DNA of 64,000 nucleotides from contig NC_088297.1 in the NCBI RefSeq assembly GCF_032854445.1, forward strand, positions 24,875,127-24,939,126. Direction: 5' to 3'. The stretch's first letter is position 1; each line of letters begins with the position of its first letter. This DNA is from Liolophura sinensis (taxonomy: Eukaryota; Mollusca; Polyplacophora; Chitonida; Chitonidae). A program made the translations under genes and the position numbers. This document shows positions 344 through 33,896 of this stretch, piece by piece. The notes beneath the pieces are model-generated. The model searched no databases and was not told the origin of the DNA. It worked only from the letters and a program-made list of their open reading frames with translations.

Positions 344-1443
344 CAATCGGGCAAATCACATCCACATCCGCTACATTCCATCATATTGGTTCTCCCGTCC
401 TTGGGGCTATGTCTGAAATTCACGAGAGTGAAGAGAGAAATTGACAGCAAGCTCTTCTGGATAAATAGTATGAACCTTGTAAAACAAGATAACCACGTCA
501 TTTGAAAGCAAATTAACTGATAAAGCCAAGAGTTATCAAGCTTATCATCTGAGCTTTGTGTCATCAGTAAGATCTGACAACCATAAACAAATGTCGTACA
601 TATGCACCTGACAAGCAGTCTGGAAAATTTTACAGCAGTTTGGAGTAAAAGATCGAAAGATTAAATAACTCAATTCTACTCTCTAAATGTCATGTTCTAC
701 GAAAGGCTAGGGGCCAATAACCAATGGTGCTAGACTTGCAAAACTTTATACCACTTCTGCTAGCCACACTAAGCCTGGTTCTTGCTGCTAAGCACATTAA
801 GCCTGGTTCTTACTGCTAGCCACACAAAGCTTGGTTCTTACTTGGTGAAGATTTCCAAGGCCAGTTCTTCAAACTGCTGCTTCTGTTCCTGAGGCTGAGG
901 CTCGTAGGACTCCAGCCTGATGAAGGCATTAGAACAGGTGCCGAATGCTCGATTAGCCGCTGCTGTCAAGGCTGAAACAACAAAAACATGCCACACATTA
1001 ATTACTGACATTTTACCTCGCATGTATCTTTTGTATTTGAGGACATTTTATTTATATCTATAACTGTGTTACCCATTGTATAAAATCTCCTTACAGAAAC
1101 ATGGCATCAGATTTATTCTGTATATCTTCCTTCATACACTCTAAAAGAATTGGGAACTAGAGTAGCTCTTTAAGACAGGCAGACATTCTCATGTGATGCT
1201 ACCCACTTCTGAGCAATTATGACACACATGTTCCAGGTATGCATACTTAGTACATGAGAAGATTGCTAGGATCAAAATGTTGGAATTCACATCTCTCTGA
1301 CATGTACACAACTGTCCCTATCATTTCACGTCTCACTGCATGTCTGAGGAACTCACCCAACAGGGAATAAATGTCCACCGGATTGAGAATATCATCGTAA
1401 TCTCGGAGATGAAGAGCAGTCTTCATGGCAGCATCCACGTAAC
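344..1443 (-). CDS. WDR35: WDR35 exons 29-31: C-terminal region (partial)
   Basis: Coding exons: 1357-1443 (residues like [18 protein letters not shown]), 842-971 ([16 protein letters not shown] and [16 protein letters not shown]) and 344-412 ([20 protein letters not shown], then LPDW). Exon 30 could be read straight into a TAA, but AA|GTAAGA is a good donor and exon 31 continues in phase with a cysteine-rich segment, as expected for the zinc-binding tail of this family. Exon 31 ends TG|GTAAGC, so at least one further exon completes a Trp codon. I see no candidate between 1 and 343, so it should lie left of the window. Confidence 0.85.
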
Positions 1444-13400: not shown

Positions 13401-16400
13401 AACACCCTGTAAAGTTCATTTTCAACAGTCGCAAAGGATATCCATTCTGGAGGCATTTGGATAACCATGACTTCCAATTCAATGCGCCTAGAAGTTTGAA
13501 AATCTACCTACGGGGAATTTACTACCCTGGCTTTCAGAATATGGAAAAAATAAATAGCTTCAATATTTTTTGAGATATATGCCCCTAAAAATTGTGTTTC
13601 GTTCAATGCACTTTCTTATTTTCAGTAAGCTGCCATAGGTCATGTGATAGATTTAGGAGATATTTGTTGCCTGATTAATATTATTGATGTATATGACAAT
13701 TTGCAGAAGAAAGTCTGACCATTTTGAGGTATTATTATTCATCTAGTTGGTGTCCAGGACAAAAGAGCAGACATTTTACCTCGTTTTTGTCTTAACTGAT
13801 CCCCATGTTGACAGCTGAACACCTCTTTGACATTTTTTCCACATCTACATACATCTATTAGCCAACTATGGTAGAAAATTCAAGAGTTTTTCTGAACTCC
13901 TACTTCTACCACATATTTTGTGTTCTTGTGGCAGGGGACTTGCTTCAGGGACCACTGAAGTATCATGCTGAAGACACCAGACATGACACCTCACTCAGTC
14001 ACAGGGCCAATTTGTCCTGTTTCCTTGCTCTAACCCCTCAGTGCTGAGTGCAAAGCGATGCAGGCCCAAGTACCATTTTTGAAGTCTTTGTTATGACCCC
14101 ACCCGGGTTTGATCCCAAGTCTCCCGAATTTAAGGCAGACACAATATCATGGATAACCTAAAATGTGTTAGAACAACTCTTATGCCGTAACTTCTAAATT
14201 CTGTATTTGTTCTAATTTAATTTAAGGATATCGCTAACCCATAAAAATTCACACTCTACAAGTAAAACCCATGTCTACGTTATGGACAAGGCAGTAAATT
14301 AACCCCTAAACTGCCGTTCATTTATATGAAATAATATACTGTCTATAGCAAAATCGCCACACTACTCAACAACTCTCTTGTCATAACTTCTAAATTCTGC
14401 ATTGACAGTTCATCAATAAAACACATTTTTGATTAAATCTTGACACTGAGCCTGAGACTTCATTATAATTTATGTGTATATTGAATTTTAATCAGCGTGA
14501 CTGCTCTTTGTACACATGATAAAAGCACAAGTACTCACCTTAATTTCCATTTCTATGACGTTCTCTTTCGTGGGATTCTCTGGGTCTTTCATTATCTCAT
14601 CTAACAAAACAGCCTTGATCTGAAGATCATTGAACTGGCAGATGTAACTGCTGCTGACAATTGGCTCCTGAAATAAACCAAAGATTAACCAGTCAAAATT
14701 GAGTTAAAAATTCCAAAATATTGAGGGTTTCTATGGGAAACTTAAAGAGTAGTCAAACATTGAAGTACATACATGTCTCATACTTTCACACATACTTTCT
14801 CAAATGGGTACAGAATCAATGCTGACTGGCTGGCTGGCAGTAGAAATAGGGTTTCCTGTGTTAAACCCTGCAGCCTTGGTCAAGCTTGCATAACTGGCTG
14901 GCAGTAGAAATAGGGTTTCCTGTGTTAAACACTGCAGCCTTGGTCAAGCTGGAATAACTGGCTGGCAGTAGAAATAGGGTTTCCTGTGTTAAACACTGCA
15001 GCCTTGGTCATGCTTGCATAACTGGCTGGCAGTAGAAATAGGGTTTCCTGTGTTAAACCCTGCAGCCTTGGTCAAGCTGGAATAACTGGCTGGCAGTAGA
15101 AATAGGGTTTCCTGTGTTAAACCCTGCAGCCTTGGTCAAGCTTGCATAGCTGGCTGGCAGTAGAAATAGGGTTTCCTGTGTTAAACACTGCAGCCTTGGT
15201 CAAGCTTGCATAACTGGCTGGCAGTAGAAATAGGGTTTCCTGTGTTAAACACTGCAGCCTTGGTCAAGCTTGCATAACTGGCTGGCAGTAGAAATAGGGT
15301 TTCCTGTGTCAAACCCTGCAGCCTTGGTCATGCTTGAATAACTGGCTGGCAGTAGAAATAGGGTTTCCTGTGTTAAACCCTGCAGCCTTGGTCAAGCTTG
15401 CATAACTGGCTGGCAGTAGAAATAGGGTTTCCTGTGTTAAACCCTGCAGCCTTGGTCAAGCTTGCATAACTGGCTGGCAGTAGAAATAGGGTTTCCTGTG
15501 TTAAACCCTGCAGCCTTGGTCATGCTTGCATAACTGGCTGGCAGCAGAAATAGGGTTTCCTGTGTTAAACCCTGCAGCCTTGGTCAAGCTTGCATAAATC
15601 TGCCAACTAAAATTCAACTTCGGCAAGGCATAGCCTATCACATCAGCCAATGAGAATGGATGCTGTATCTCTTTTTATTTTAGATAGCAAACGTCACCAA
15701 AACAGTGAAAGTATGTTAAAGAGATTAACAATTGTTTACAATATCATATTAATTGGCAGATGTAACTGGTAAACGTAACAAAAAAGATTTTTTTTTTTTT
15801 TAAATCTTCCAGGTATAACACAGAGCATGTTATGGATGAGATTTATCACCAATGACAAAACATTTTTGTTCTACAATATAATACAAGTTTGTGGAGTTAT
15901 TTCCCCTTACCTCAGGATCCAGTCCCCTGAATATGTACATCCTAGTCTTCTCCATCATGGCAAACAGCTCAGCATTATCCTGCAACAACAGCAGCACCAT
16001 AAACATTTACTGATTTACCCACGAGCTTTCTTATTCCTATAATGTTGAACTGAATGAGAACGGTACTCATGATTATTTCAGCTTGTAGACTGACGGCATG
16101 CATTTAACCTTAGTTGTTCATTACACGCCTGTTTTTGCTGAATAGCTATAGTGTCGTTCTACACGACAACAACAACAACAGCAACAACACATCACCACCT
16201 AACATGACATGCTGGAAAAAGGCCATGGTTGGTGTACAGTCCAGACCACCAGCCCTTGACCTCAAGGGTTGCCAGTTCAAATCCATCTCTTGTTGGTTTG
16301 TCTACAGCCTGTTTTCACAATGAAGACTACAACCTGGGGACGTATTGGGCAACTAGAGACAACACTTACATCTGCCCAGCGCATGTCCCACACGTCTTTG

Positions 16401-19400
16401 CGTTCAAACTTGAGGTGTTCCCCGGTGACCTCCTTCCCATCCGCATCATGAACCCGTGACTCAAGATCAAAGAACGTCAAAACCCCAGCAATGTCGATGA
16501 TAGCAAGGCGCCTGAAACACAAAACCAGTAGAGATTCAAACTTTGAACATACATGTAGTTTCATGCTTAATTCTTTTTCTTCTGTTCAATGATCAATCCC
16601 AGTGGCACAGTTTTAATCAACAATGTGCTCTTTATACAAATAATTCATGATACAACAGAAACTATTATTTTTCATACTAGTCTTCAGTCTGCAATGAATC
16701 AAGAGTTTTCTTTCTTAGTGAATTTCACCTTTGGACAGCAGACAGCCAGACACCAACAGACTAACTCCTCTCTACTTAAATCTCTATTCCCTCCTCAAAA
16801 TACATGCAGTACCACTATCAAGTTCCATCCACTTGCCCTGTTGTCATGGTATGTCGATACAGAGGGCTGGTTCATAACCAGCCAAACACCTTTACAACAT
16901 CTCCACAAGCTAGCAGTCCACCACTAGCCTGCCAGTGGTTTGCCTGTGGTGTACTCGTTGAATGAACGGTTCTAAGACACTTAAACTGCAACAACGTTAC
17001 ATTTAGTTGATGACCACATCAAGATCTTTCTGCCCTCATCGGATGAGGGCTAAATGAATGGTAATAACGGATGGTACAATGCATGCATGGCTCTGCTGTT
17101 GCAATACTGAGCTAGTGGCTGGCTGATACAGTATGTATCCAACCCAAGGCCTGTACTTACGTGGTGTTACAATTGATGGAGAGCTGATGAGGACGGCAGT
17201 TCAGCAGATGCTTGTTTGTCAGATTTACCATCGGCAAGCCGTAGCGATTCACTGTCCCTGATTCACGACCCTGTAAACCACACATTCACTGTTTACTATC
17301 ACCATCCAGTACAGGCTTGTATTTGAACATGCATTTCGTTGTCATCAACCACTTCTGTAAAGTAGTACAGCAAATAACCTAAAATTTTGCCTCCAAAAAT
17401 TACATTTTAGGTGAAAAAATAAATGCCATAATATATTACTTTTGATACTGAAACCTACACTTTTCCCATGGTTGTAATCCTGCCTTCCAAATGTTCCAAA
17501 GATCACCAGACCTTTCAGAATCACGCAACGTGCATCTCAACCATGCGTGAAATTACAGGTCATTTACCGCACCGTACATGGTGCGTATTTTCTATTTCCT
17601 CTCATGAACAAAAATGATAACTAAACATGTACTGTAACATTCAAAACATGAAAACATGAAAACAAGAGAAATACCTCTTCACGAAATTCTGTCATCGAAC
17701 CTGTCACATGAATAGCTTAGTCATGTTTTCCCCAATTCTAATGCATTCCATCAATGATCTTAGCTTCTCTAATAAGGGCAACTGCCTTGGGTCAACTCAC
17801 ATATAAACTTGCAGACTACACAGAGAGATCTCACAATAAACTGTAAATTTTCAACCTTTTCCATTGCTAAAGCATGTTTTTCAGTGGAATTTCTGAATAC
17901 ATTTATTATGAAAATGACCATAAGAAATGATTAATTTGTGTTATTAAAGATCCAAGCTTGATTAATCTGTGCAAATGGTTTCTCTACAGTCCACAGTCCT
18001 CTCAGAATGTTTCAAAATATTGGTGGCAGATGGGGTTGAAAATGTTGAGGAATTAGGGTACTTACAACAATGAGAGCCTTATCAGAGGCACATATACAGG
18101 AGATTGGATCCTCTGTGTTCTGTAAAACCAAAAACCATGTATCAAAAGACAGAGCACAATAGCCAGTAAATCCATTTCATATTATCATTTTGAATCAAAT
18201 TAGATTTTGTATTTACCTGTTGGTTTACATGCATAAGAAGGTAGGTGGACATAAGTTAAATGTTACAGTTAAGAAAAATCCTCATGCAAAGTTACTGATC
18301 CATACTGAAAACAGTGGCCATACATGTACCCTTGTCACTTGAAAACATTAAATATATCTTTACAGTCTCCTATAATTTGTTTTGTTATGCATTTGCAAGT
18401 ATTTCGATATTTTTTGTTCATGGATTGAAATGATAATAAAAAATATTTCCTTTTGTTCATGGCATGAAATGATAATAAAAATATTCCTTTATTTATTTAT
18501 TTTTATTCCTGACTTGAAACGATAATGGTTGCCACTAATATATAAACTTTGCCTAACAACAACCACACTGTATCAGGGTCATATTTAAACAACAACTGGC
18601 TTTAAACTCACCACAAAGGCTTTGCTGAAATCTATAGTATCCTGTGGCCCACCTGTGGGCAAGTCATCAATGTGATATAACCTGGAAAATAAGGAGGACA
18701 GAGACTAAAACAGGAGGAAAACTACAGTATACCTACAGGTTAGTTTCGAGTTTGAGTGAGTGAGTGAGTGAGTGCGGGATTGTGGTTTAACATCGTACTT
18801 AACAATTCCTCAGTCATATGACGACGAAGGAGTGCTTAGAGTGCATGTAATGTGCCTACTTGTTGCAGGTTGCATTTCCACTGCTCTTTTGCCTAGTGCT
18901 GCCGCACTGAGACAACTTACCAAAGGCAAGTAAGCTGCCCCACCCCAACCATATACTGATACAGGTCAACCAGTCGTTGCACTTCCCCCTTAATCCTGAA
19001 TGCCTAGCGAGGAAGCTGCAACTTCCTCTTTTAAGGCCTTAGGTGTGAGCTGACCCTGCATCCCCTGAAGTGCCATAAGTGGTAATGTCACGGCACAAAA
19101 GGATGTCACGATGTCAAATCAAGCAATTCCCTCATTGCACATGTGGATCACAAACAACTAAAGAGTTAAACTTAATAAATAAATAAAGAAAAAAACATAC
19201 ATGCACACTTATAAACGCAAAAAAAAAAATAAGCACATTATATTTGATCGTGATGAAAAATGCAGTCCTTTATGTGCTCAATGATATTTTAATGTGATAA
19301 TTTCAGTTTACATGTGAATGAATAATTTCAGAGAATGTTGTACATTCCATAATGTCACACGGATTAATGACAAACGCATCTCCACAAGGGAACACTAACA

Positions 19401-22400
19401 CACACATACAAGTAAGCACACTACACAACAGAGTACATGATAGCCTCCGCCACTAACCTCTCTGTTCCAGTTTTTCGTTTGCCGGACATTTCCAAAGCCA
19501 CCATTTTCTTGGGATTTTTGAATTGCCAGGTGTAAAAGGCTTCTTTTGACGCTGCGATGATGTGCGACCGTGTCATCGTCAGGTAGGCGGGGTCAATCTC
19601 AATGTACTTAGAGTCCAGAGGCGTGCCAATTGAGTTACACAGCACTAGTACATACTGTCAATAAAGAGAAATAAATCATTTACCATCAATCTGGCTTTAC
19701 ATTTCAAAGTGATACAGTTGCTGATTGGCTGGTGTGAGAAACAGGCATCCATGCCTAGGCTAAGCTCCATATAAGGTAGGGTTGGTTTATCCATGTGTGA
19801 CCGAGACTAGCCTTTAACCACGAAAATCCTATCTCAACTGTCAGCATGGCTTCAGCATTGGTTTAAAAGAAATGCAATTTCTGTAACCCTGTAAGGTGGC
19901 ATCAGCGTGAAGCATCACCTCAAGTCATTGTTACCTCAAAACTTTACTCTAGCACAATGTCTGCAGTGTCACAATACGTCAGTTTTTTTCTGTTGCTTTT
20001 ATAATGACATTATTATGACGAGTTTAGAAAAGAGCATCTAACATCAATATAATGGCATCCTGGGCCTGCAGACGAGGGTTTGACAGGTCCCAGTAAGAGC
20101 CGGTTAACATTTAAACATACCATATGAGCATTTTTTGTAATAAACAACACATTCAAAAGTTTGTTTTATTTTAGACACAACACTAATTTTTCCACACTTT
20201 AAAACGGCAAAAAATTACAAATGAGTATGATGAAATCACACCTGTCCAGGAAGTTCATCTGCTTTTGTTGCCAGGCAACAGTAATCACCACACGCTGTTA
20301 TAGAGATCAGGTTCTTCACGTACTTGACATATTTCTGAAAATAGAAAACCATGTAGAGTCAGGAATGTCCCTTTAAGATTTCATAATCAAACCATTCCTT
20401 GTTATCAGAGCTTGACATATTTCTAAAAACAGAAAACCATGTAGAGTCAGGAATGTCCCAGGAAGATTTCATAGTCAAACCATTAGGTGTTATCTGAGCT
20501 TGACATATTTCTGAGAGCAGAAAACCATGCAGAGTCATGAATGTCCCAGGAAGATTTCATAATCAAACCATTCCTTGTTATCAGAGCTTGACATATTTCT
20601 CACAACAGAAAACCATGTAGAGTCAGGAATGTCCCAGGAAGATTTCATAATCAAACCATTCCTTGTTATCAGAGCTTGACATATAATAATATTACTGTTA
20701 CAATTACTGCATTTCACCTAAAGCTTGGTATGTAACACTGCTCTTTCAGATTCACATAAATGCCTTAAAAAGATAATTTTCATGATAACACCTGATTTGT
20801 ATCAAAAAGAAATTAATCAAACTTCACAAAAACCTCTTAAATGGCCCCATAAGGTGGGTAAATCAATCAGAATCATGCAAAATGTGTCACTTACTGCAAA
20901 ATGCAAAACTTAACAGAGAAGAAAATTTTAATATCAAACAAATACCACTCAAAAGAGTATGCATTTTCTCACATATGCATGCCATAAAAAAATTCTAAAA
21001 AAATTTGTACTTCACACTGATAAATTATAAATAAAGTCAGCGCCAAAATCCACTGTGCGCATCTCCATTTTGCCTAAGAACTATTCCTGAATTCTTCTGT
21101 GTTAGCAGGAGAATTTCTGTCGGCAACCACCGAAGTACATTTCCAGTAGAAAATGTGCATGACCTGCCAACTGCTCATACTTCACATTGCTTTGGTGATT
21201 TCTGCTTGACGATCGGGAAACCAAAATCTTGGGTGTAGGTTCCTAGTTTACACGAACAAGCCAGCAGTTTTATCGACTTTCACTGGCTGAGAGGCAACAC
21301 ACCCCAGGTTTAAATTCCAGGGTGTTAAAGATGGACGATGCAATGGACTCAGAGATTTATGCCAGCTTTGCAAAAATATTCAGCAGGCACCACCAGATAG
21401 AAAAAAATGTGGTCTTTCAGCCTGTGGTGTCATTTTTAAAATTTTCTTCTCCTTTAAGATCGAATACAGCAGAAAATTTCACGAAATTTGATGTATCACT
21501 AAATTTTTACAGCAATGACACGTGACACTTCAACATAAAACTAGAATGATTTTATCCTTTAAGGCAGCAGAGACCTACAGCTGCATGTCAAATTCTTCCG
21601 TTCTTGTCTGTGAACGTGAGTACACTTTTGCATTAATAACTAGTGCAGTGCTCACTGAAAATAATTCATGCGTGGGCTTTTCTTTAGGGCCAATATGAAG
21701 TCAATGGGATGAATGGTCGTGGAGAAAGTCAAAGGGAGAACAAACACACTGAGAGATTTCTTCCTTTACAGTTCAGTAGCCAAATGTAACTCATAAGATA
21801 ACTTCTGACTTATTTATGTGATTGGTTTTATGGCATACTTGAGAATATTTCATTTATCCAACGGCAGCCAGCATTATGGTAGAAGGGGGGGGGGGGGGAA
21901 CCCACGACCATCTGCAGGTTGCTGGCATACTTTCCTACGTACAGCTGGAGAGTAAGCCAGTGAAGCGACCACACTGGAGAGCGGCTCCTGGGTCATTGTG
22001 CCATGCTAGCATGCTAACCTCGGCCACAATAATTTCTTATTGGAATCAAACTTGAAATTCGACCGTGACATGAAATCAATTCTGAAACCCCTTTACTTTC
22101 CGTATGATAAGTTTGTTATTCCACAAAGTACAACACATGACAACTTACCTCTCCATTTTTTGTGTCCCAGAAAATGACGCAGTGCTCAGATCTGTCAGGT
22201 TTGGTGAAGGAATACACCACAGTGTTGGAGCAGTAACCCCACTGGAAGTAAAATTCAAAATCAAACATTCTGTAATTTGATTGGTGTATAATTCCAAACT
22301 CTTTTTGTATTACACAAATACAGCCAGTTTTAAGGGTCTAGGAAACAAGAGTGCCCATTGCAAGTACCTGACTAATTATCAATATAACAAAAACAACTTC

Positions 22401-25400
22401 ATGTACCCTAAATGATCTAAAATTTGACTGTCAAAGGTGCATTTTTAGAGGCAAATAAATATCACATCATTATCCCATGCTCATGGCAAAACCTCAAAAT
22501 GCCTTTCTAGAATCAACAGAACTCTCTGAATCAGGAAAAAAATGACCAAGTTAGTCATGGACGAAACTGATGGTCATTTAGAGTACATCATGTCAGTGGG
22601 AAGCAAAGTGAAAGCCCACAAACTTCATGTCAGACTACATCAACTCTCGTATCAGCACTGTCTACTGCTTAGGTGTTGGAAATAACTTTCCAAATAACTT
22701 TCAAAACTGAAATATCTTCCAAAATTGAAACACCTTTCAAAATTGAAATAACTTTCAAAATAATGTTACACATGGAAAGTTTCCTGATGGTAGTCCAAAT
22801 TACACTGCCAAACCACAGAAACTGTGCTGTCCTACAACACTGACACATGAAATGCGATCTAAGGGATGCTTTCACACAACACGCTTTTACAACAACATTG
22901 CCAAGGCATCATAATGTAGACAAAACAAAGAAATGAATTTGTCATCCTACCTGTCATGTGGGTAAGTTAGATACGTTATTCTCCAAATCTAGAGAGGATT
23001 TATACGTTCAGACACAGCTGCTCTGGAGAATGAATTGACTTGTAAAATGTAAATGGATTCACAAGGTCGTGAGGGTTGCCCAATTTCCTTACAGTACGCA
23101 CCTTGTAGTCTGGTCGAATGTTAGCAAAGTAGATGAAGGAGTCGACGGCGAGGGCTACTCTTAGACTTCCCCCCTCCCAGGAACAACTGAACATCTGCTT
23201 ACCAGGCACCTTCAGCGTCCGCAGGTGCTGGTGGAAAGATAAAGATTAGTTTATTTATTTTTTTTTATTTATTTTGATTGATGTTTTTTTTACGCTGCAC
23301 TCAAGAATATTTCACTTATACGACAGCGGTCAGCATTACGGTGGGAGGAAACTAGGCAGAACCCAAGGGAAACTCACAACCATCTGCAAGTTGCTGCCTG
23401 ACCTTCCCGCATATGGTTAGGGAGGAAGGCAGCATGAGCTGGACTTGACTGAATTCACAGAAACCTCACAGGTTAGAGGCTCCTGGGTCATTGCACCACC
23501 CTGGTATGCTAATCACCTTTGTCACAGAGACCCCATGATATAATTTATTGTTAAATGCCATAATCATGAATTTTTCACGGATATGACGTCCGTCAGAATT
23601 GTCAATGTGTTAAGGATAAATCATCACCCTTTGACAGGTATCAGACAAATCTTTGGACTTCAAGCAAGTAAATAGCCAGCCCCTTGGCTGGATTTGACCC
23701 TTCTTGCTACCTCACAAAATATCAATTCAGGCATGACTAGCTTTTTCATTTATTTCGCTGTTGTTTAATGCAATACTCACACGATAATTTTTTCACTTCA
23801 TACACGTACAATGGCAGTCAGTACAATGGATGAATTATGCCCAGGGTAAACCACCAACCTTTTGGCAAGTTACTGATAAACTTTCTCACGTGATGTGCAG
23901 ATCAGATATGCACACTATACTGTAGGAAGAAGAGTGGTTTTCAACATCTAGACTAAGCAAACACTAACGGAGTTAGGCAGAATTATAATACAATGTAGCT
24001 AGCTAGGCAGTCATGACTCATATGGCTGAGATATTTTATTATAGGCTTCTGCAATGCCAACAGCCAAAAGGAATGACCAGATATTATCTTACCTCTCCAA
24101 ATGGGGTGTAAAACTGTACAACATTGACGTCCTTCTCCTGCCCTGAGGTCTTCTGTGACCCAGCCACGGCTAAGACAGAGCCCGAGTGATTCCACCCCGT
24201 CTGTGCCACCTGCATCCCTGTGTCTATGAGGATTGGGTCTGTGGGGGGGAAACAGTTGAGGTTAGGTGTGGGGAGTGCTATAATCGTGCCTGTCTGTGTC
24301 ACCAGGAGGGTTTTCATGAGACAGAGCTTACTGTAGGTCATTCTCCTAAATACAATATCTCCAGCCATTGAAATCCACTGAAACATTTGCACAAGGATGC
24401 AATTACGTTTTCTTTTTCGTCCAGTACTTTGTCACAAATACCCAGAATTATGATATGTAAGTCAAGAAATAAAAAAATTTATGTTGCAAAAAGAATTTTG
24501 ATGGGAATTTTTTTTAGATACTTTCAGAATTTAAAAGACACATCATTAAAATCGATGAATAAATTTATCATAATTCAGGTGATTAAAACCAAATTATATG
24601 TAATTAAATACATAGATCAATCAAAATTAAAAGAAATTTATTAAATTGAAAACAATATAAACAACACATAGACTGACACACAGAGTTATACAAATGATCA
24701 GATATTTCAAATGCTTTTCACAAATGAGATCAAAAAGGTGGCTTACTTTCATCATTCTCGTGCTTCATGATCTGGCATCGTCCGTTGTCGAAGCAGACAG
24801 AGAGGGAGGGGCAGTTAGGCTCCAGGTAGCCGTGCATACCATTGTACCACTCCAGTCCTGAGATGTGGATAGACCCTGACACACTGCCCAGGCAGTACAC
24901 CTGTAGCTTGGACTGTAACAAACCATGGCTGTCATTTAGTACAGATAGAGAGGGAGGGGCAGTTAGGCTCCAGGTAGCCGTGCATACCATTGTACCACTC
25001 CAGTCCTGAGATGTGGATAGACCCTGACACATTGCCCAGGCAGTACACCTGTAGCTTGGACTGTAACAAACCATGGCTGTCATTTAGTACACACAGAGAG
25101 GGAGGGGCAGTTAGGCTCCAGGTAGCCGTGCATACCATTGTACCACTCCAGTCCTGAGATGTGGATAGACCCTGACACACTGCCCAGGCAGTACACCTGT
25201 AGCTTGGACTGTAACAAACCATGGCTGTCATTTAGTACACACAGAGAGGGAGGGGCAGTTAGGCTCCAGGTAGCCGTGCATACAATTGTACCACTCCAGT
25301 CCTGAGATGTGGATAGACCCTGACACACTGCCCAGGCAGTACACCTGCAGCTTGGACTGTAACAAACCATGGCTGTCATTTAGTACAGACAGAGAGGGAG

Positions 25401-28400
25401 GGACAGTTAGGCTCCAGGTAGGCGTGCATACAATTGTACCACTCAAGTCCTGATATGTGGATAGACCCTGACACACTGCCCAGGCAGTACACCTGTAGCT
25501 TGGACTGTAACAAACCATGGCTGTCATTTAGTACAGATAGAGAGGGAGGGGCAGTTAGGCTCCAGGTAGCCGTGCATACCATTGTACCACTCCAGTCCTG
25601 AGATGTGGATAGACCCTGACACATTGCCCAGGCAGTACACCTGTACCTTGGACTGTAACAAACCATGGCTGTCATTTAGTACAGACAGAGAAGGAGGGGC
25701 AGTTAGGCTCCAGGTAGCCGTGCATACCATTGTACTACTCCAGTCCTGAGATGTGGATAGACCCTGACACATTGCCCAGACAGTACACTTGTATCTTGGA
25801 CTGTAACAAACCATGGCTGTCATTTAGTACAGACAAGGAAGGAGGGGCAGTTAGGCTCCAGGTAGCCGTGCATACCATTGTACCACTCAAGTACTGAGAT
25901 GTGGATAGAACCTGACACATTGCCCAGACAGTACACCTGTATCTTGGACTGTAACAAACCATGGCTGTCATTTAGTACAGACAAGGAAGGAGGGGCAGTT
26001 AGGCTCCAGGTAGCCGTGCATACCATTGTGCCACTCAAGTCCTGAGATGTGGATAGAACCTGACACATTGCCCAGACAGTACACCTGTATCTTGGACTGT
26101 AACAAACCATAGCCGTCATTTAGTACAGATAGAGAAGGGACAGTTAGGCTCCAGGTAGGCGTGCATACAATTGTACCACTCAAGTCCTGAGATGTGAAAA
26201 GACCCTGACACACTGCCCAGGCAGTACACCTGTAGCTTGGACTGTAACAAACCATGGCTGTCATTTAGTGCACTATTTTGGTCTGATTGGTGTTAAATAT
26301 CATGCTCCAAAATAATTCACTTATATGACACAGCTTACCTGCGCTGGTTCAAATGACTCTATCAAACGTATTTCTTATCTCTGACATCCATGTTATTCAA
26401 TGATCATGTTTCCTTGGTCTGAGATTTCCACTTTTTCATTTCTCGTAAGCTGGTGATCAGGTTATGGTCCAATTATAAGGCAGTATGATTCATGAAACAA
26501 TGGAATTACCATTGTAATTATAAAATCTTATATGGACGTGGCTTGAAAATGAAGTTCAGATGTAACTACTTTGCATTAAAAGAAGTGATGTTAAGTTAAT
26601 ACTGATTTGTTTAAAATTTTAGTTTAAATGACAGTGGGGTTGGAAAAAAGAAACCAGACGAAGCCAAAAGTACACAAGCACTCCTCGTTAGGAACTTCAC
26701 AGCTTTTTGGATGTATCCACATAGTTATCACATCTGTTAACACCTTACTCAAGAATTTGCCACGTATACAATGGTGGTCAGCTTTACTGGGTGGAGGAAA
26801 CTGATGAGCCAGAAGTAAACCATCAGCCTCTGGCAAGTCACTGATAAACTTTCCCACCAGGCAGATATGCTACAGACAGATGCATATCCCACTCAGTAAG
26901 ACAAATGGTCTTCAACTAACACTGTAGTATTTAATATTGTGTACTCATGATAACAGTAGGCCTTTATGTGCGAAGGTCTTCCAGCAACTGGAAGGTCGGG
27001 GGTTTACACTGGACCCCGTTTCCTCCCACCATAATGCTGGCAGCCATCATACAAGTGAAATACTCTTGAGTACGCCGTAAAACACCAATCAAACAAAAAT
27101 AAACAAATCATGATAATAGTATGTGTTTATAACTTACAATAAAATTGCCCAGGTTGTCAAAGATGTGGATCTCGCCATTAGTCATTCCAAACAGGAGTAT
27201 TTTACCATCAGGTGACCACTGAAAGAGACACAGCAAACAAATCTTACAGAAATGTATCTACTGTCTCCTGTTTCATTAAGGTAGATATACATCCAATAAG
27301 TGCCAACTGTAAGGATGATATCAGATAATAGCTTTATGCCATTTGAGCAATTTTTCAGTCATGTTGTCCTGAAACCATGTTAGAATCTCCAAGCAGTACG
27401 GTTTTAATTCATGAAAGATGGAAAAATCAAAATTCATACATAGTCCATATAAAAACATAAAACATTTATCAATGCGTTTTGATTTACATGACACATTTGT
27501 TTTGACTCGGGCACATATGTAACCTAATATCCGAAGCAAATTACTACATGACACATTTGTTTTGACTCAGGCAAAAATGTAACCTAATATCCGAAGCAAA
27601 TTACTACATGACACATTTGTTTTGACTCAGGCACATATGTAACCTAATATCCGAAGCAAATTACTACATGACACATTTGTTTTGACTCAGGCACATATGT
27701 AACCTAATATCCGAAGCAAATTACTACATGACACATTTGTTTTGACTCAGGCACATATGTAACCTAATATCCGAAGCAAATTACTACATGACACATTTGT
27801 TTTGACTCAGGCACATATGTAACCTAATATCCGAAGCAAATTACTACAGGACACATTTGTTTTGACTCAGGCACATATGTAACCTAATATCCGAAGTAAA
27901 TTACCACATGACACATTTGTTTTGACTCAGGCACATATGTAACCTAATATCTGAAGCAAATTACTACATGACATATTTGTCTTGACTCAAGCACATAAGT
28001 AACCTAATATCAGAAGCAAATTACTACACGATATATTTATTGATATCACTTCATGTAGTTCATCATTTTCCATCAGAGGAATAGACATACATGTGTCCGT
28101 TACACGAAGTTCACAGTATTAAAATTCAGGCTTACCTCCACATGAGCCAGCTGGAGCCCTCTCAGCTCTTTGCCCCAGATTCTGTTCCCATCCACTGATC
28201 CCACAATAACTGCTCCTGCGTAGACAGAAAAACAGAATTAGCTTGATATCCAGTAAATGCATTTCAATTTAAACCATTAAATCGTAAGGTCCAACTTTTG
28301 AGATAAATATTGAAGCATGGAATTTCAAATACCTCATTGCCAATTTTTGGGGACTCAATCAAAACACTGAGAAACAGTCTTCGAGATGCTATTTTTTACA

Positions 28401-31400
28401 TGTTTAATTTAAATACTGAGGCACAGACTTGAGATAAATGGTAACTTCTTTACTCGTCACCACAACTCACCATCTTCATAGACAATACAGATTTTCTGTC
28501 CATCAGAATTCCATTTCATGCTGCGGACGACAGACTTGTTCCTGTTGTTGATCATTTCCTCGTACCAGGATCCTGAAAATAAACCACTCCTCAAGTTGAA
28601 GGAAACCAAAGTAAATCAATAAATATGGGATAGCTCCTACAGCTGAACTTACAAAAGGCCTGAAATTTCGTTCACAAAAGCGCATTTTTAGAGGCAAATA
28701 AATGTCACAATATATAATTTTTTGCTGAAACTTATAGTTTTCCAGTAGAATATCATCCCATGCTCCAAGAAAATCTCAGAACACCTTTCTAAAATCAACA
28801 GAACTCTCAGAATCAGGAAAAATAGGGAAATTAGTCACGGGCCAAATTTATGGTTACTTTGGGTAATTCCACATTCACAAATAACCTTACAAAAGGTGTA
28901 ATTTTAAAAAATGACAACTTCACTTGGACTCAATACTTCAGCTTTTAACTTTGTTTATTTATTATCTGATGGGTGTTTTATGCCGTACTCAAGAATATTT
29001 CACTTATACAACGGCGGCCAGCATTATGGTGAGCATTATGGCAGAGCCCGGGGGAAACCCACGACCATCCGCAGGCTGCTGTCCGACCTTCCCAAATACG
29101 GACGGAGAGGAAGCCAGCATGAGCTGGACTTGAGCTCACAGCGACCGTATTGGTGAGAAACTCCTGGGTCATTACACAATTTTACTTTGTCATCATCAGA
29201 TGTATTAGGTAAAACTCATCAGTGGTACAAGCCGAGATCAGAACTAACCCTTGTACAGCATCCAGACGATGATCAGCCCATATTGGTCACTTGTGGTCAG
29301 CTTCTGGTAGTTCTCATTCCATGTCACCACTTGGACATTACCTGACAAACACAAAGCACATGTGAACCAATGGTGTACAGCTGAATGCATTCATCTAGAA
29401 GACACACAAAATCAGTTTATGGGGAACAGGAGTGAGTTGGCGTGTGTCGCCACAAATGATTTACTTTAGTCACCCACTGAATCATTTTTATATTCACAAA
29501 CAGTCCTTATTAAAGGCAATGAAAACATTTAAAATGGAGTATGTATCATGTGAAAGACCATTAAAAACTGTCCTGGAAAACAGCTGGATTTTGTTTTTTT
29601 CTTACAATTTTACAGTTTAACCTTACAAAATGCATTGGAACATTTTATTCTGTGGTGGCCTTTTCTGACTGCAATGGGACCAGTGCGGTCACAAAAGGTT
29701 TTTGCTACTTAACACACATTAGACTGCTACATCTCATAATTCAAAAAATGCACATACATATAATTTGCTGATTTGACCTTGAAATGAATTATTTAAGGCA
29801 AAAGAAGAAAGTGAGTTTTAACGTTGTACTTAACACTTTTTCAGTCATATGACAACGATAGGCAAAAAGGATAGATGTGACGTGATTGATAGTGTCTTGG
29901 TCATAACACTACACTGTAGAATATGATATTTTATCTTTTAATCTTACTTGGTTGGAAAAAATCAAAAAAAAATAAATCCAACTATTTTCCTGGACAGTTT
30001 TTAATGGTATTTGATCTGATGCCTACTTTCATTTTAGACTGGCCATTTATCTAAAGTTGGAGAGAGAGGTTGCATGGCTGAAGCAGTTTATAGAAGACTT
30101 ACTCAAAGACAGCTGTATATTAGTTTGCAAAACCTGTATTGTTTACAGAGACAACACCGGCCATGCTTCAACCCACCCACCCACTCAACCCAAAACCTGT
30201 ATTGTTACACTCATGTTACATCAACCATTCAGCCATATGCATGTCATCCCAGCTACACATACACATACTGTAAAACACTATGCCATGTGTGTAAGAGACA
30301 ACAACGGCCATGCTTCAACCCAAACACCCACTCAACCCCAAAACCTGTATTGTTACACTCATGTTACATCAACAATTCAGCCATAAGCATGTCATCCCAG
30401 CTACACATACACGTATTGTAAAACACTACACCATGCATGTAAGAGACAACAACAGCCATGCTTCAACCTACCCACCCACTCAACCCCAAAACCTGTATTG
30501 TTACACTCATGTTACATCAACCATTCAGCCATATGCATGTCATCCCAGCTACACATACACGTACTGTAAAACACTACACCATGCATGTAAGAGACAACAA
30601 CAGCCATGCTTCAACCCACCCACCCACTCAACCCCAAACCTGTATTGTTACACTCATGTTACATCAACAATTCAGCCATAAGCATGTCATCCCAGCTACA
30701 CATACACATATTGTAAAACACTATGCCATGTGTGTAAGAGACAACAACAGCCATGCTTCAACCCACCCACCCACTCAACCCCAAAACCTGTATTGTTACA
30801 CTCATGTTACATCAACCATTCAGCCATATGCATGTCATCCCAGCTACACATACACGTATTGTAAAACACTATGCCATGTGTGTAAGAGACAACAACAGCC
30901 ATGCTTCAACCCACCCACCCACTCAACCCCAAAACCTGTATTGTTACACTCATGTTACATCAACCATTCAGCCATATGCATGTCATTCCAGCTACACATA
31001 CACGTATTGTAAAACACTATACCATGTGTGTAAGAGACAACAACAGCCATGCTTCAACCCACTCACCCACTCAACACCAAAACCTCCATGTAACCTGTAA
31101 GACAAATCAACTTCTTAAACTCAATAATAAAGAGATAGAATATACCCACCACTGTGGCCTTCCAGAGTCTGGTTCATGGACAGGTTACTAGGAGCTGCCA
31201 GGCCTTTCACCTTCACATCTTTTCCTGAAACATATTTTACATGACTCTAAATTACATTGGGGGAAGTTACAATTGGTTGAGTAGTATGTTAGTGGGAAGG
31301 CAGCATACATTTCGTTCCCGAGGTGGCGCTAGTGTGAAGCCTGACCTCAAGCTAAATTTATGTCCAAAATGGCTTTCAGCACAGCGTCTTTACTGTTAGA

Positions 31401-33896
31401 ATGTATCAGTTTCAACTGTAACATCGTACTGTCTTTAATGTGAAGTCATTATGATGAGCTGTGACAAAAAGGCTTCATTTGAATAAAACGCTGTCAAGGT
31501 ACTGCTGCCAGGCATGTCATGGTCCCCATTAAACTTCAAAATTACAGTCATGTACATGCTACAGATTTTGTACATATTTATGTAATCATGTAAATGGGAT
31601 AAGCAATCTGTTTCTGATAAAGATAGGAAATTTAATTTTGACTCAACAAACCTATGATACTTTTACTGCTCTTGAGACCTTGTAGTAATAAATGGTTAAC
31701 AGTACACCTTGGGCAACTAAACTGCCCCGGCTTTTTTGGCAGCCACTAGTACACATCTACATGTAGCTTTACAGCTCAAATCTTTGTTCTACACGTTGCA
31801 AACTACGTCAGTTACTTGCCAAAGTCACGCAGGTTTACTCCCAGAATTCAAGTTTTTCTCCACCCATGAAAGGTATCCACCTTGATGTTCTTAGCGACAG
31901 TGTTAAACACGAATCAATGAATCTCATTCTGACACAATCTCTCGTCTGTGTGTGTGACAAGCTTCATGGTACATTACCTGTTTGCGTCTCCAGTTTTAAC
32001 ACCTTCAAAAGTCCATCTTCTCCACCGCAGGCTATGTATCCTTGATCTTTGTTCCAAGAAACACATCGCAGTCTGGTGTTATTGGGAATGGCAATCTACA
32101 AAACAAATGACGAGTCTTTACCATTCTTTAATGAATGAATGTTTGGGTTTATACGTTTTACCTAACAATTTTTTAGTCATGTGACAAAGAAGAGTGATTA
32201 GGTGTGTGTACTGTGTATTCTCTGTAGCACACCGAGTCCATGTCGCCAAAGTGCTGCTGCCACTAAAGTATCATACTGCAGACACCAGACACATTATCCC
32301 ACCCAGTCCCTTAACACTCACAACGGGCTAACAAGTCCTGTTTTCTTGCTCTAGCCTCTCAGTGACAAGTATCATTTCCCAAGTCTTTGACATGCCTTAA
32401 TGTCACAACTGGCAAAGTGGTAATCACAAGGAATATCCTGTTGTGTTCTAGAGTTAGACAAATGCTGGGCTTTGAACATATTCAGTAAGCTAAATGTTCT
32501 CCCTACATATGCAATTAGATGGTAATGAACAACACTCCTGACCTGATAAATTTTACCTAACAAGATATGGCGCTTTACCCCTGTGATTAGGTTAATGTAA
32601 ACACCACTGACTCAAGGGACATCGGTGTCAGTATACACCCCTCCAGTATCAAACTTCAACAGTATCTATTTCTTGAATCGGTGAATGCTGCTTAAGTGTT
32701 TCCAAGAAGGATTGTTAATTAGGCCACTAACGTTTTACAGATGGTTTTACGGATGGCAACTTCCATTTATTCTGTAAGTGACATTTCTCAGTATAGATAA
32801 TAATAATAAACAATAATGATATAAGCATCTATACCAAATAAATAGACCTCATCTATGTCCTATAGAAGTTTTCATTCATGATCTTTTTAAGATATCTACA
32901 GTGATCCGCCTTAGTTTGATCTAAATCTCAATGCTATTGAAAGAGGTCAGTGAAGTTACTGCATTATCTATGGTTCTTGTGTAGCTTAATAATTAGACGT
33001 CGTACGCCAAACGAAGCTTTAATTACACCACAATCTGCTCCTGTTATGATCATATGAAGTATTTCTAGTTCATGACCCCATAAAAACTTGGAATAGGCAG
33101 CCATGCTCACCATTTCTAACCTTTGCAGAGTGGGCTATTCTCCACGATGTGGATTTTTTGTCTGTGATGCACAGCAGATGAGTTTCATATGTGACAAACA
33201 GCCATGTGCTTAACAAAAAGTCTCCATCGCGGAAAATACTCAGCAAAGAATCAAGACGGGCACATGCCTGCCTGTTCAATGTTTTGCCGTCTTTTCAGTC
33301 TTATGTTCAGTGTGGGCAAAACAGAAGTCAATATTGGTCCAACAAAAGTGCAATCCCCTCACCTCGGGATTGCTGATTAAGGTAAAAAATTCTAGAGGTT
33401 CCAAATGCGGATAGGTAGATACCCAGCCTTTTGGCAAGGGACCTGTCAGACACTGCATCGTTAGCATACATTGACTAATTCATTAGGCTAGTTCTTGCGC
33501 CGTGGATTGATAGGTGTTTTACACATAATACGGATCGTAAATGCCAACTGGTATTTTATCTTGTGTAGAAATATGGAGAAAAACAAATATTTTTAATTTG
33601 GTCGTCTGTATCACTCAGTTAAATTAGTAAGTAGATAACGGTATATATCTAAATGGTCACAATAATCCTGTTGATTCATTATATTTTAGCAATGTTCACG
33701 TTCAGGAAAATTCTGAAAACATGCACGAAATGAAATAATAAAGAGATCCCGGATGAGAAGTGTCAAAAGTAGGAAACTCGCATTTGGCTTCATTAGCAAC
33801 GGCCGAAAATTACGGACAAATTAAACATTCGGAACAAGCCAGTCAGTGACATAATACTGAAGCATACATTACCTTTTTACTTAAATACACAAACAT
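344..33896 (-). CDS. WDR35: WDR35 / IFT121, intraflagellar transport complex A subunit (31 coding exons, 3' end outside window)
   Basis: Encodes a core IFT-A protein that supports retrograde intraflagellar transport and delivery of membrane proteins into cilia. I identified it by recalled similarity to vertebrate WDR35 along almost its whole length: two N-terminal WD40 propellers, then a TPR-like helical solenoid, then a cysteine-rich tail. The start ATG is at 33894-33896 and the protein begins MFVYLSKK, as in the family. All 31 exons have GT donors and AG acceptors, and phases agree from one to the next, with one exception in exon 27. The joined coding length is 3,380 nt, about 1,126 residues, against roughly 1,170-1,180 in vertebrates, so only the final exon(s) are missing beyond the left edge. 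Exon coordinates are in the four block entries below. Introns range from about 150 nt to over 4 kb and hold most of the tandem repeats in this half. Confidence 0.95.
1706..2778. repeat. 29-bp minisatellite, about 37 copies (WDR35 intron 28)
   Basis: A unit close to 'aaggccatctaagcagcctc' plus 'actgaatgt' is repeated head to tail. Variants differ mainly at the bases between 'cact' and 'tgtaagg'. Several longer sub-blocks recur inside the array, which suggests higher-order duplication. Confidence 0.95.
3113..12912 (-). CDS. WDR35: WDR35 exons 20-28: TPR-like helical solenoid, with apparent frameshift in exon 27
   Basis: Coding exons: 12824-12912, 12107-12224, 8152-8237, 7720-7863, 6246-6378, 6030-6092, 5137-5349, 4479-4621, 3113-3248. 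They give residues 657 to about 1031, the helical-repeat arm that contacts other IFT-A subunits. Recognisable strings are [13 protein letters not shown] (exon 20), [20 protein letters not shown] (exon 21), [20 protein letters not shown] (exon 24) and [20 protein letters not shown] (exon 26). Exon 27 enters in phase 0 (VAEDQAK), but its second half ([15 protein letters not shown]) is in another frame. One base appears to be missing near 4600; read literally, a TGA follows at 4577-4579. Exon 28 starts in the phase expected if one base is restored. The exon 24 5' portion is repeated three more times in intron 23. Confidence 0.9.
3455..3945 (+). mobile_element. Penelope-like retroelement remnant (end of RT and GIY-YIG domain)
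   Basis: The frame reads [17 protein letters not shown], then [20 protein letters not shown], then [20 protein letters not shown], and ends [20 protein letters not shown]. This is the layout of the end of the reverse transcriptase followed by the GIY-YIG endonuclease of Penelope-like elements. It is truncated at the 5' side, and a 19-bp tandem duplication (3626-3644 and 3645-3663) breaks the frame inside the endonuclease start. It lies in WDR35 intron 27 on the opposite strand and is not functional. Confidence 0.8.
6310..6705 (-). repeat. Tandem partial copies of WDR35 exon 24 with its 3' splice site
   Basis: The true exon 5' part (to 6378) is followed, going upstream on the minus strand, by three further copies around 6409-6515, 6517-6615 and 6616-6700. 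Each carries the polypyrimidine/ACAG acceptor and coding sequence down to the SECYY codons. The copy nearest the intron start encodes [20 protein letters not shown] and then reads into intron sequence. The middle copies carry substitutions, one with an in-frame TAG. None has the second half of the exon or its donor. Confidence 0.9.
6740..7530 (+). mobile_element. SINE-like element with internal 141-bp amplification (5 units)
   Basis: The unit from 'ttagctcgctatcacagtac' to 'gctctgcccaa' starts at 6761, 6902, 7043, 7184 and 7325, exactly 141 bp apart and almost identical. It is followed once by the usual tail of this family ('tcttcccaccacaatc' through 'catagcataaaacaagaatc'). The head-side part has been amplified inside the element. 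The period is a multiple of three, so spurious open frames run through it on both strands. Confidence 0.8.
8310..8505 (+). mobile_element. SINE family A copy
   Basis: A tRNA-like B-box region ('ggttgtgagttcaagtccag') is followed by the family body ('cctcccaccataatgttggc') and tail ('gagtacggtgtaaaacacca'). In WDR35 intron 21. Confidence 0.75.
8977..9798. repeat. 82-bp tandem array, 10 near-identical copies (WDR35 intron 21)
   Basis: The unit starts 'gttggctcatgtttacgata' and ends 'ctttctccaagagagagg'. Copies at 9059, 9141, 9223, 9305 and 9387 are 82 bp apart. Two later copies have one extra A in 'caaagacaaacc'. Very low divergence implies recent expansion or gene conversion. Confidence 0.95.
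10259..11955. repeat. 101-bp tandem array, about 17 copies (WDR35 intron 21)
   Basis: The unit contains 'cttgtcacttgtcagatgtt' and 'catcttgcacggtatgcagg' and repeats every 101 bp. Only a few positions vary (cccc/ccgc, tactact/taccact, gtatgc/gtatac, agcata/acatag), and the variants are distributed in blocks. Confidence 0.95.
12531..12735. mobile_element. MITE-like element with imperfect terminal inverted repeats
   Basis: The left end 'gattccacaaatacatttct' and the reverse complement of the right end 'gattccgcaaagccagtttg' match at most positions and continue as gacttaagtcaaaa / gacttatgtcaaaa. It is about 200 bp, AT-rich and has no coding capacity. A related half-end occurs near 5,405-5,440. 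The target duplication is unclear. Confidence 0.5.
13915..14160 (-). mobile_element. SINE family B copy
   Basis: The reverse complement shows the tRNA-like head ('gggatcaaacccgggtgggg'), the middle ('ctcagcactgaggggttaga') and the 'gtcatgtctggtgtcttcag' segment that defines this family. In WDR35 intron 19. Confidence 0.7.
14539..23227 (-). CDS. WDR35: WDR35 exons 10-19: second WD40 propeller
   Basis: Coding exons: 23102-23227, 22149-22241, 20242-20334, 19458-19654, 18612-18681, 18066-18119, 17161-17270, 16370-16511, 15911-15979, 14539-14667. They give residues 296-656. Diagnostic strings include [17 protein letters not shown] in exon 10, [20 protein letters not shown] in exon 11, [20 protein letters not shown] in exon 13, [13 protein letters not shown] in exon 16, [18 protein letters not shown] in exon 17 and [19 protein letters not shown] in exon 18. 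Together they form the second propeller that holds IFT121 in the IFT-A core. Phases are continuous throughout. A short stretch of the exon 12 5' end, with its acceptor, is repeated several times in intron 11. Confidence 0.93.
14824..15597. repeat. 64-bp tandem array, 12 copies (WDR35 intron 18)
   Basis: The unit is 'actggctggcagtagaaata' followed by 'gggtttcctgtgttaaaccc' and 'tgcagccttggtcaagcttg' plus 'cata'. Variants are confined to a few sites (accc/acac, aagcttg/atgcttg/aagctgg). Confidence 0.95.
17385..17585 (+). repeat. Dispersed repeat copy (family with 22.4 kb and 28.7 kb)
   Basis: Shares the ordered blocks 'ctaaaattt', 'gaggcaaataaat'-like, 'cccatg', 'cctttc' and 'cagaatca' with 22,415-22,590 and 28,650-28,870 in the same orientation. 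It is the most diverged of the three. No coding potential. Confidence 0.45.
18755..19130 (-). mobile_element. SINE family B copy
   Basis: A (GTGA)n start, then 'aacatcgtacttaacaattc' and 'tcagtcatatgacgacgaag', the characteristic tail of the family read on the plus strand, followed by the middle segment through 'ccagtcgttgcacttccccc' and 'aatgcctagcgaggaagctg'. In WDR35 intron 13. Confidence 0.7.
19890..20110 (+). repeat. Dispersed repeat copy (family with 31.3 kb)
   Basis: Shares 'ggtggc', 'agcgtgaagc/agtgtgaagc', 'cacctcaag/gacctcaag', 'attatgacgag/attatgatgag' and a 'tcctgggcctgc / gtactgctgccagg' end with 31,310-31,540 in the same order. Confidence 0.4.
20322..20695 (-). repeat. Tandem copies (about 88 bp, 4-5 units) spanning the WDR35 exon 12 acceptor
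   Basis: The true exon 12 start (20334) lies in 'cttgacatatttctgaaaat'. The motif 'gcttgacatatttct' recurs near 20410, 20498 and 20586, each with the AG and the first 12-13 exon bases, plus a truncated copy near 20676. Units also share 'accatgtagagtcaggaatg' and 'aagatttcataatcaaacca'. The breakpoint lies about 12 nt inside the exon. Confidence 0.85.
21815..22035 (-). mobile_element. SINE family A copy
   Basis: Read on the plus strand: 'gattggttttatggcatact', 'cagcattatgg', a G-homopolymer, 'cccacgaccatctgcaggtt' and 'cggctcctgggtcattgtgc'. This is the reverse complement of the family. In WDR35 intron 11. Confidence 0.7.
22415..22590 (+). repeat. Dispersed repeat copy (family with 17.4 kb and 28.7 kb)
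   Basis: Contains 'gcatttttagaggcaaataa', 'tatcccatgctc', 'aatcaacagaactctctgaa' and 'gttagtcatgg', closely matching 28,650-28,870. Confidence 0.6.
22677..22762. repeat. Short AT-rich tandem repeat, about 18 bp x 5
   Basis: Variants of 'gaaataactttcaaaatt' in tandem with small substitutions. Confidence 0.7.
23250..23525 (-). mobile_element. SINE family A copy, with degenerate related copies to 23,930
   Basis: Plus strand shows 'acgctgcactcaagaatatt', 'cggtcagcattacggtggga', 'gcatgagctggactt' and 'gaggctcctgggtcattgca'. Two weaker relatives follow at about 23,560-23,700 and 23,740-23,930 ('aaaccaccaaccttttggca'). Confidence 0.7.
24093..33896 (-). CDS. WDR35: WDR35 exons 1-9: first WD40 propeller
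   Basis: Coding exons in gene order: 33873-33896, 31978-32095, 31150-31224, 29249-29341, 28471-28572, 28136-28215, 27138-27218, 24747-24912, 24093-24238. They give residues 1-295. Recognisable pieces are [20 protein letters not shown] in exon 2, [20 protein letters not shown] in exon 5, [20 protein letters not shown] in exon 7, [15 protein letters not shown] in exon 8 and [13 protein letters not shown] in exon 9. All match family positions as I recall them. Exons 2-5 end in phase 1 and exons 6-7 in phase 0. Exon 8 is odd: its acceptor and first ~115 nt are repeated nine more times upstream in intron 7 (separate entry). I chose the 24912 acceptor because only that copy continues into the rest of the exon. 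Confidence 0.93.
24797..26277 (-). repeat. WDR35: 148-bp tandem array (10 units) copying the acceptor and 5' half of WDR35 exon 8
   Basis: Units run from 'agacagagagggaggggcag' to 'aaaccatggctgtcatttag', every 148 bp, starting near 24797, 24945, 25093, 25241, 25389, 25537, 25685, 25833, 25981 and 26129. The first unit is part of the real exon. Each of the others carries the same TTTGTTACAG acceptor and codons for [20 protein letters not shown] through NCPSLSVC, then reads TK and a TGA. The period is not a multiple of three and no copy has a donor or the exon's 3' half. Copies are nearly identical; the three or four distal ones share private variants (for example 'gacaaggaaggagg'). Confidence 0.95.
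26740..26880 (-). mobile_element. Degenerate SINE-related copy
   Basis: Contains 'ctcaagaatttgccacgtat', 'tggtggtcagctttactggg' and 'aaaccatcagcctctggcaa', related to family A in reverse orientation but diverged. Confidence 0.45.
26955..27110 (+). mobile_element. SINE family A copy
   Basis: 'gaaggtcttccagcaactgg', 'tttcctcccaccataatgct', 'gtacgccgtaaaacaccaat' and an A-rich end. In WDR35 intron 7. Confidence 0.75.
27484..28028. repeat. 60-bp tandem array, 9 copies (WDR35 intron 6)
   Basis: Unit 'ttactacatgacacatttgt', 'tttgactcaggcacatatgt', 'aacctaatatccgaagcaaa'. The central copies are nearly identical and those nearest exon 6 are the most diverged. Confidence 0.95.
28650..28870 (+). repeat. 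Dispersed repeat copy (family with 17.4 kb and 22.4 kb)
   Basis: Contains 'gcatttttagaggcaaataa', 'catcccatgctccaagaaaa', 'aatcaacagaactctcagaa' and 'attagtcacgggcc', the most complete copy of this family here. Confidence 0.6.
28950..29185 (-). mobile_element. SINE family A copy
   Basis: Plus strand shows 'gggtgttttatgccgtactc', 'cggcggccagcattatggtg', 'gggggaaacccacgaccatc', 'gccagcatgagctggacttg' and 'aaactcctgggtcattacac', an almost complete reverse copy close to exon 4. Confidence 0.8.
29795..29880 (-). mobile_element. SINE family B tail fragment
   Basis: 'taacgttgtacttaacactt' followed by 'ttcagtcatatgacaacgat', the tail of family B in reverse orientation. Confidence 0.5.
30141..31083. 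repeat. 148-bp tandem array, about 6.4 copies (WDR35 intron 3)
   Basis: The unit contains 'gagacaacaacagccatgct', 'cccacccacccactcaaccc', 'acactcatgttacatcaacc' and 'cccagctacacatacacgta'. It has the same period as the exon 8 array but an unrelated sequence. It ends about 70 bp before exon 3. Confidence 0.95.
31310..31540 (+). repeat. Dispersed repeat copy (family with 19.9 kb)
   Basis: 'gaggtggcgctagtgtgaag', 'ctgacctcaag', 'gtcattatgatgagctgtga' and 'tactgctgccaggcatgtca' align in order with 19,890-20,110. Confidence 0.4.
32120..32430 (-). mobile_element. SINE family B copy (diverged)
   Basis: 'ttacctaacaattttttagt', 'catgtgacaaagaag', 'tatcatactgcagacaccag' and 'gctctagcctctcagtgaca' on the plus strand give family B in reverse. 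In WDR35 intron 1. Confidence 0.6.

Follow-up and report, generated by a model that had tools for sequence, protein, structure and literature searches.

Ten tandem copies of a 3' splice site in the WDR35 gene of the chiton Liolophura sinensis, probably a mirage-like boundary minisatellite

The WDR35 gene

The stretch of DNA analysed here (the window) consists of 64,000 nucleotides of the chiton Liolophura sinensis (assembly GCF_032854445.1, contig NC_088297.1, positions 24,875,127 to 24,939,126), and the element in question is a tandem array of 148-bp units that sets nine additional copies of a 3' splice site (acceptor) ahead of one exon of the cilia gene WDR35/IFT121. A tblastn search with human WDR35 traced the gene from 32.1 kb to 0.8 kb of the window. 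The model built on this search (Table 1) leaves out the start-codon exon and the C-terminal end, and every one of its modelled coding exons is preceded by AG and followed by GT. The exon at 24912-24747, in which the array ends, encodes a 55-amino-acid peptide (SKLQ...ENDE) that matches human WDR35 (PDB 8bbe_E, E=4e-21), and it is exon 8 of the gene if one untraced start exon stands ahead of the first modelled exon. Two reading frames were seen near a short A run in another WDR35 exon, 4621-4479 (window 4596-4625), with VAEDQA in one of them; either an indel of the assembly or a genuine allele may account for this.

A tandem array across an exon edge

Tandem Repeats Finder (TRF) described the array with a period of 148, 10.0 copies and a match of 95%, for which chance is far too weak an account. 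Each unit joins 30 nt of the intron end (TACTAAAT...TTTGTTACAG) to 118 nt of exon (115 nt in copy 1), and the repeat spans the exon-intron boundary. The unit opens with TACTAAAT, which is branch-like; copy 1 carries CACTAAAT in its place. The first-pass annotation had assigned this sequence to WDR35 and described nine extra acceptor copies upstream of the real exon in a 148-bp array, a description that TRF and the exon model confirm, and its left coordinate, 24747, is exactly the last base of the exon. A DNA search of the 609-Mb assembly that skipped very common words found the array at no place beyond its own locus.

The real acceptor is the tenth of ten, with its first exon base at 24912 in forward coordinates. 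TTACAG is kept in all nine decoys, so that the units of the array carry a splice signal. The acceptors are spaced by 145 nt once and then by 148 nt eight times, the first interval being shorter because copy 1 lacks 3 nt. In the 23-nt acceptor window eight of the nine decoys are identical to the real site, and with a scoring matrix built from the 28 other WDR35 acceptors the real site scored 6.75, which eight decoys equal and the remaining one exceeds (Table 1). Exons reaching from the decoys to the real donor would measure 314 to 1495 nt, as against 166 nt from the real acceptor, and all nine hold an in-frame stop when read through to that donor. The stop had been given in the first-pass annotation as TGA; this is correct for eight decoys, where it follows ...CTK, and copy 4 stops earlier, at a TAG.

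Table 1. Modelled exons, splice-site arrays and decoy sites of WDR35 (positions in the window), with the boundary arrays of the sampled kinesin and myosin genes (locus handle, with positions where given)
Feature	Position	Strand	Side	Details
WDR35/IFT121	842..32095	minus		29 coding exons modelled within window; tblastn, splice sites set by hand
Preceding exon (...GNFI)	27138..27218	minus		donor GTAAGT
Acceptor array, 10 copies	24794..26269	minus	acceptor	unit: branch-like TACTAAAT, pyrimidine-rich stretch, TTACAG, first 118 exon nt
Nine decoy acceptors, first exon base	26241, 26096, 25948, 25800, 25652, 25504, 25356, 25208, 25060	minus	acceptor	26096 scores 7.44, each of the other eight 6.75
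Real exon (seventh in model)	24747..24912	minus		166 nt; in at phase 0, out at phase 1; donor GTAAGC
Following exon (NPILIDTG...)	24093..24238	minus		intron splits N codon
Second acceptor array	20323..20684	minus	acceptor	88-bp unit x 4.1, holding acceptor plus 12 nt at the start of exon 20334-20242; decoys at 20598 (GAG), 20510, 20422
Third acceptor array	6309..6695	minus	acceptor	94-109-bp units, holding acceptor plus opening part of exon 6378-6246; decoys at 6679, 6581, 6472
Donor-side array	757..842	minus	donor	28-bp unit x 3.1 from donor of exon 971-842; copies 814 (GTAAGA), 786 (GCAAGA)
Kinesin array	L004, 3622-4803		acceptor	27-bp units, 43.7 copies; unit with pyrimidine tract and TGTCAG/GTATTTT
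Kinesin array	L008		acceptor	about 27-bp units
Kinesin array	L010		donor	71-bp units, 46.1 copies
Kinesin array	L019, 7799-9871		donor	67-73-bp units including last part of exon
Kinesin array	L020		donor	30-bp units, 2.4 copies
Kinesin array	L027		donor	34-bp units, 31.4 copies
Myosin arrays	L030, L032, two in L033		donor	

Divergence among the copies

Compared without gaps, any two copies are separated by 1 to 22 mismatches over 148 places. Copies 5 to 10 are 1 to 8 bases apart, and copy 1 stands 15 to 22 bases from the rest, a range in which its 3-nt deletion overstates the divergence. The real exon falls in the young group and is one base different from copy 8. Among the variable sites 26 pairs conflict with one simple tree, a count inflated by 11 pairs that involve a three-state site; conflicting pairs are the pattern expected from exchange between copies. 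The two parental ends share TGC (AGTGC/ACTAAAT before copy 1 and TCTGC/TTCGAC in the real exon), and the copy-to-copy junctions read like TCTG-TACTAAAT. Duplication at a three-base microhomology plus one later change would fit these ends.

The exon parts of the copies hold 15 nonsynonymous and 10 synonymous changes, with an expected synonymous share of about 24-30% (p 0.10-0.28), and one of the nonsynonymous changes creates the stop of copy 4. In this small test the divergence is indistinguishable from neutral, and nothing in it indicates that selection maintains the decoys. Variable sites make up 3 of 30 intron positions versus 24 of 118 exon positions (Fisher p 0.29), which gives no sign that the splice signals of the decoys are conserved.

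The same comparison bears on an assembly artefact, in which the repeat would have been collapsed or inflated. The WDR35 array is known from a single assembly, and one amphioxus globin array of the same kind was aberrantly assembled in the genome draft, according to PMC3087553. Against this, the copies vary at 27 of 148 sites, and like arrays occur in genes elsewhere, where the contigs reach 96 Mb. An artefact is therefore very unlikely, and the exact copy number of the WDR35 array may nevertheless be wrong.

Further boundary arrays in WDR35 and in other genes

Tandem arrays are abundant in the window, where 27 of them (TRF, merged by hand) occupy 15,178 of the 64,000 bases. WDR35 itself holds 14 arrays of period at least 15, and four of these sit across exon edges. 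In the two other acceptor arrays the scores are 4.8, 10.0 and 9.9 for the decoys and 14.7 for the real site at 20323-20684, and 8.2, 5.5 and 10.8 for the decoys and 12.4 for the real site at 6309-6695. In the donor-side array the copies score 4.5 and -1.1, and the real donor 6.2. A scan with a 28-base window of the 29 acceptors and 29 donors of WDR35 found local copies at three acceptors and zero donors; it missed the donor array because the unit there contains almost no exon. In-frame stops are present in 15 of 15 decoys across the three acceptor arrays, 6 of 6 in the two smaller ones.

Loci with kinesin (PF00225) and myosin head (PF00063) domains were sampled without regard to repeats. For kinesin, 140 of 141 exon matches were used and grouped into 47 windows, of which 28 windows with 112 matches were examined, 20 taken richest in matches first and 8 picked by hand. 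For the myosin head, 31 of 84 matches, lying in six match-dense loci, were examined. Boundary arrays were judged by eye on the sequence, the exon ends in these genes being match ends and not mapped splice sites, and copy numbers are TRF values. An array lies across an exon edge in 10 of the 143 matches (kinesin 6 of 112, myosin 4 of 31), and with WDR35 added 14 of 172 exon matches carry one. Both 5' and 3' boundaries are affected in the assembly, with 5 acceptor and 9 donor arrays. A restriction to acceptors, which the 3 acceptor arrays versus 1 donor array of WDR35 might have suggested, was rejected on the wider sample (5 versus 9, binomial p 0.42). The kinesin array in L019 includes a second, longer exon copy (9420-9542) with a donor-like site, a donor-side mirror of the WDR35 array; the 112 matches include it, although it is one of the array's own copies.

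Position of the arrays relative to exon edges

In the sampled genes, WDR35 counted in, tandem arrays make up 45,043 of 319,734 bases. When one unit per array was placed randomly, 1.79 + 3.20 + 1.04 = 6.0 boundary hits were expected and 14 were observed, made up of 4 in WDR35 (p 0.089), 6 in kinesin (p 0.098) and 4 in myosin; the pooled Poisson p is 0.004, or 0.010 if 6.8 hits are expected. A null of units touching any exon gave 11.0 expected contacts versus 16 observed (p 0.068), and a null of whole arrays placed randomly gave 17.8 versus 16 (p 0.73); neither of these two nulls supports an enrichment at exon edges. The 16 contacts include two arrays that were not counted as boundary arrays: one in L023 touches a match that apparently overruns its donor, and the one at 3281-4399 in L026 ends 3 nt short of its match and has a unit that is not clearly an exon edge. 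A search for hidden boundary copies among the other 71 arrays found no significant excess of splice-like sites on the sense strand (donor p 0.12, acceptor p 0.95). At the least, the arrays do not steer clear of exon edges, and a preference for them is suggestive but not established. The host is rich in minisatellites, some of which begin on exon edges.

Comparison with known systems

Arrays of this kind have been reported in amphioxus under the name of mirages (PMC3087553, PMC3902484), in which an exon-intron boundary recurs in tandem in the manner of a minisatellite, on the acceptor side and on the donor side. In the globin gene BflGb6 the 3' end of an intron and the 5' part of exon 2 are repeated in 150-160-bp units with splice signals in many copies; two haplotypes hold six and three copies, and the length is reported as unstable (PMC3087553). 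BflGb9 is another globin with a mirage, and the units of the Adh3 mirage are 10-72 bp long (PMC3087553); PGBD5, Adh and TnC have been added from lancelets (PMC3902484). BflGb6 and the WDR35 array have the same layout and a similar unit (150-160 versus 148 bp). They differ in copy number, which is six and three in BflGb6, 10 in WDR35, and 43.7 and 46.1 (TRF) in two of the kinesin arrays. They differ also in the host, here a mollusc, and in that WDR35 alone bears four arrays, known from the sequence of one assembly. The assignment as a mirage rests on three features, namely a repeat that spans the boundary, a splice signal in the units, and both sides of the boundary being hit.

Two other systems are related. 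De Grassi and Ciccarelli (2009, PMC2812944) have reported internal tandem repeats in humans that are able to alter splicing; these are minisatellites of exon-intron boundaries, as in WDR35, but they lie in segmental duplications, average 30-bp units in 4 copies and were chosen as variable between paralogues. In a potato RdRp gene (PMC4974935) the 3' end of an intron and the 5' part of an exon are likewise copied in tandem; there two copies exist and a new intron is spliced according to RNA sequencing, whereas the ten copies of WDR35 are read from the genome only. The potato case, a two-copy duplication over the same type of boundary that gained an intron, argues for intron gain under way in WDR35 by the tandem-duplication model, in which the donor of one copy would pair with the acceptor of the next and some copies would become small exons. 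The amphioxus globin authors (PMC3087553) propose mirages as a route to introns, and a CAG/GTGTAC at +12 would keep the frame in eight of nine decoys. This donor scores 0.6, however, versus 4.6-12.5 for the real donors, and the better-scoring site at +73 breaks the frame. Intron gain at this exon is accordingly a very improbable explanation.

Mirages probably occur outside cephalochordates. Boundary arrays are likely, though not established, to be new for molluscs: a literature search by the name mirage was tied to amphioxus and thus blind to other hosts, and one naming molluscs gave no paper on boundary arrays by title. If they are new there, animals can carry boundary arrays at many exons. 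A broader proposal is that this mollusc independently filled its genes with mirages (about 8% of the sampled exons), that duplication is seeded at boundaries above random, and that the genome offers thousands of natural experiments in splice choice, between near-identical sites that are distinguished by position alone. We put it forward tentatively, as an idea somewhat more doubtful than probable. For annotators there is a caution, since boundary repeats can pass for exons: in the lancelet PGBD5 gene model the repeats of a mirage were mistaken for an exon, which the authors omitted (PMC3902484).

Splicing of the decoys and the most likely origin

Ten near-identical acceptors raise the question of how one is chosen. 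The first-pass annotation had considered a special device on WDR35, with splice competition or a poison exon. In such a device, decoys used at a set rate would give stop-containing mRNA and copy number would tune WDR35 output. Nine full-strength acceptors, each with an in-frame stop downstream, and a weak, frame-shifting donor at +73 in six of the nine decoys speak for such a device. On the other side stand the neutral-like divergence of the copies, one of which has an additional nonsense change, and the same sort of array on three more exon edges of the gene and on 10 of 143 exon matches in unrelated motor genes. PMC3087553 and PMC3902484 moreover report amphioxus mirages without aberrant mRNA, with reverse-transcription PCR in the former suggesting undisturbed regular splicing. 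The proposal of a special device on this gene is thus not supported, and we regard it as unlikely; the array is probably tolerated clutter rather than a functional device.

We consider it quite likely that the WDR35 array is a mirage, a boundary minisatellite that arose by tandem duplication, was expanded by unequal exchange and is tolerated since the last acceptor alone suits the donor. A tandem duplication, probably seeded by a short microhomology, would have copied a 148-bp segment that starts about 30 nt ahead of the 3' splice site and reaches exon nt 118; unequal exchange or conversion would then have enlarged and partly homogenised the array. The final copy would have kept the remainder of the exon with its donor and hence have stayed the real exon. 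Exon definition is an established concept, and splicing most likely chooses the last acceptor, the sole one whose distance to a donor, 166 nt, is that of a normal exon. Transcripts that leak through from decoys would be nonsense. We infer such a birth, a choice of acceptor by exon definition and near neutrality; the layout, the stops, the matching acceptor scores and the occurrence of like arrays in other genes are observed.

Several observations weigh against this origin and this mode of splicing. The decoys are nearly identical to the real site from -30 to +118 nt, so that signal strength offers no basis for the choice of acceptor. Six of the nine decoys contain a GT at +73 (ATG/GTATGC) whose score of 4.6 equals that of the weakest real donor of WDR35 (leave-one-out), and at such a level some decoy exons could be recognised; as a qualifier, 182 of 2192 GT sites in WDR35 also reach 4.6. 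The microhomology, for its part, is just 3 nt and requires one later C-to-T change. Apart from the GT that stands 11 nt ahead of every AG, no GT inside a decoy scores above 4.6. The alternative in the first-pass annotation, that the decoys are tolerated for want of a donor, thus gains support in that a strong donor is absent, with the proviso of the weak GT in six of nine. WDR35 exon 8 presents ten 3' splice sites that, with their surroundings, are near-identical and differ mainly in distance to the donor, and therefore the proximity rule of exon definition is testable here in a native gene.

Other features of the window and the assembly

A 141-bp array of five units at window 6761-7467 looks by eye like part of a dispersed repeat, similar to a short interspersed element, that is found at several places in the window; minisatellites seem to amplify pieces of repeats too. 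The window further contains, on the minus strand at 49952-50764, an otopetrin proton-channel exon (PF03189, E=8e-72) and, on the plus strand at 41244-42443, a piece of a DDE_1 transposase (PF03184, E=1.5e-14), which is followed in another frame by a cysteine-rich stretch that by eye is PHD-like. A search of the assembly for GFP, which is common in amphioxus, gave no match, although its control likewise matched nothing, and an amphioxus host is not supported. A molluscan host is suggested by a tandem series of eight haemocyanin beta-sandwich domains (E 1e-28 to 3e-41), all on the same strand, which fits into 11.5 kb elsewhere in the assembly (C8:37880506-37891931); eight functional units per gene is the molluscan haemocyanin layout.

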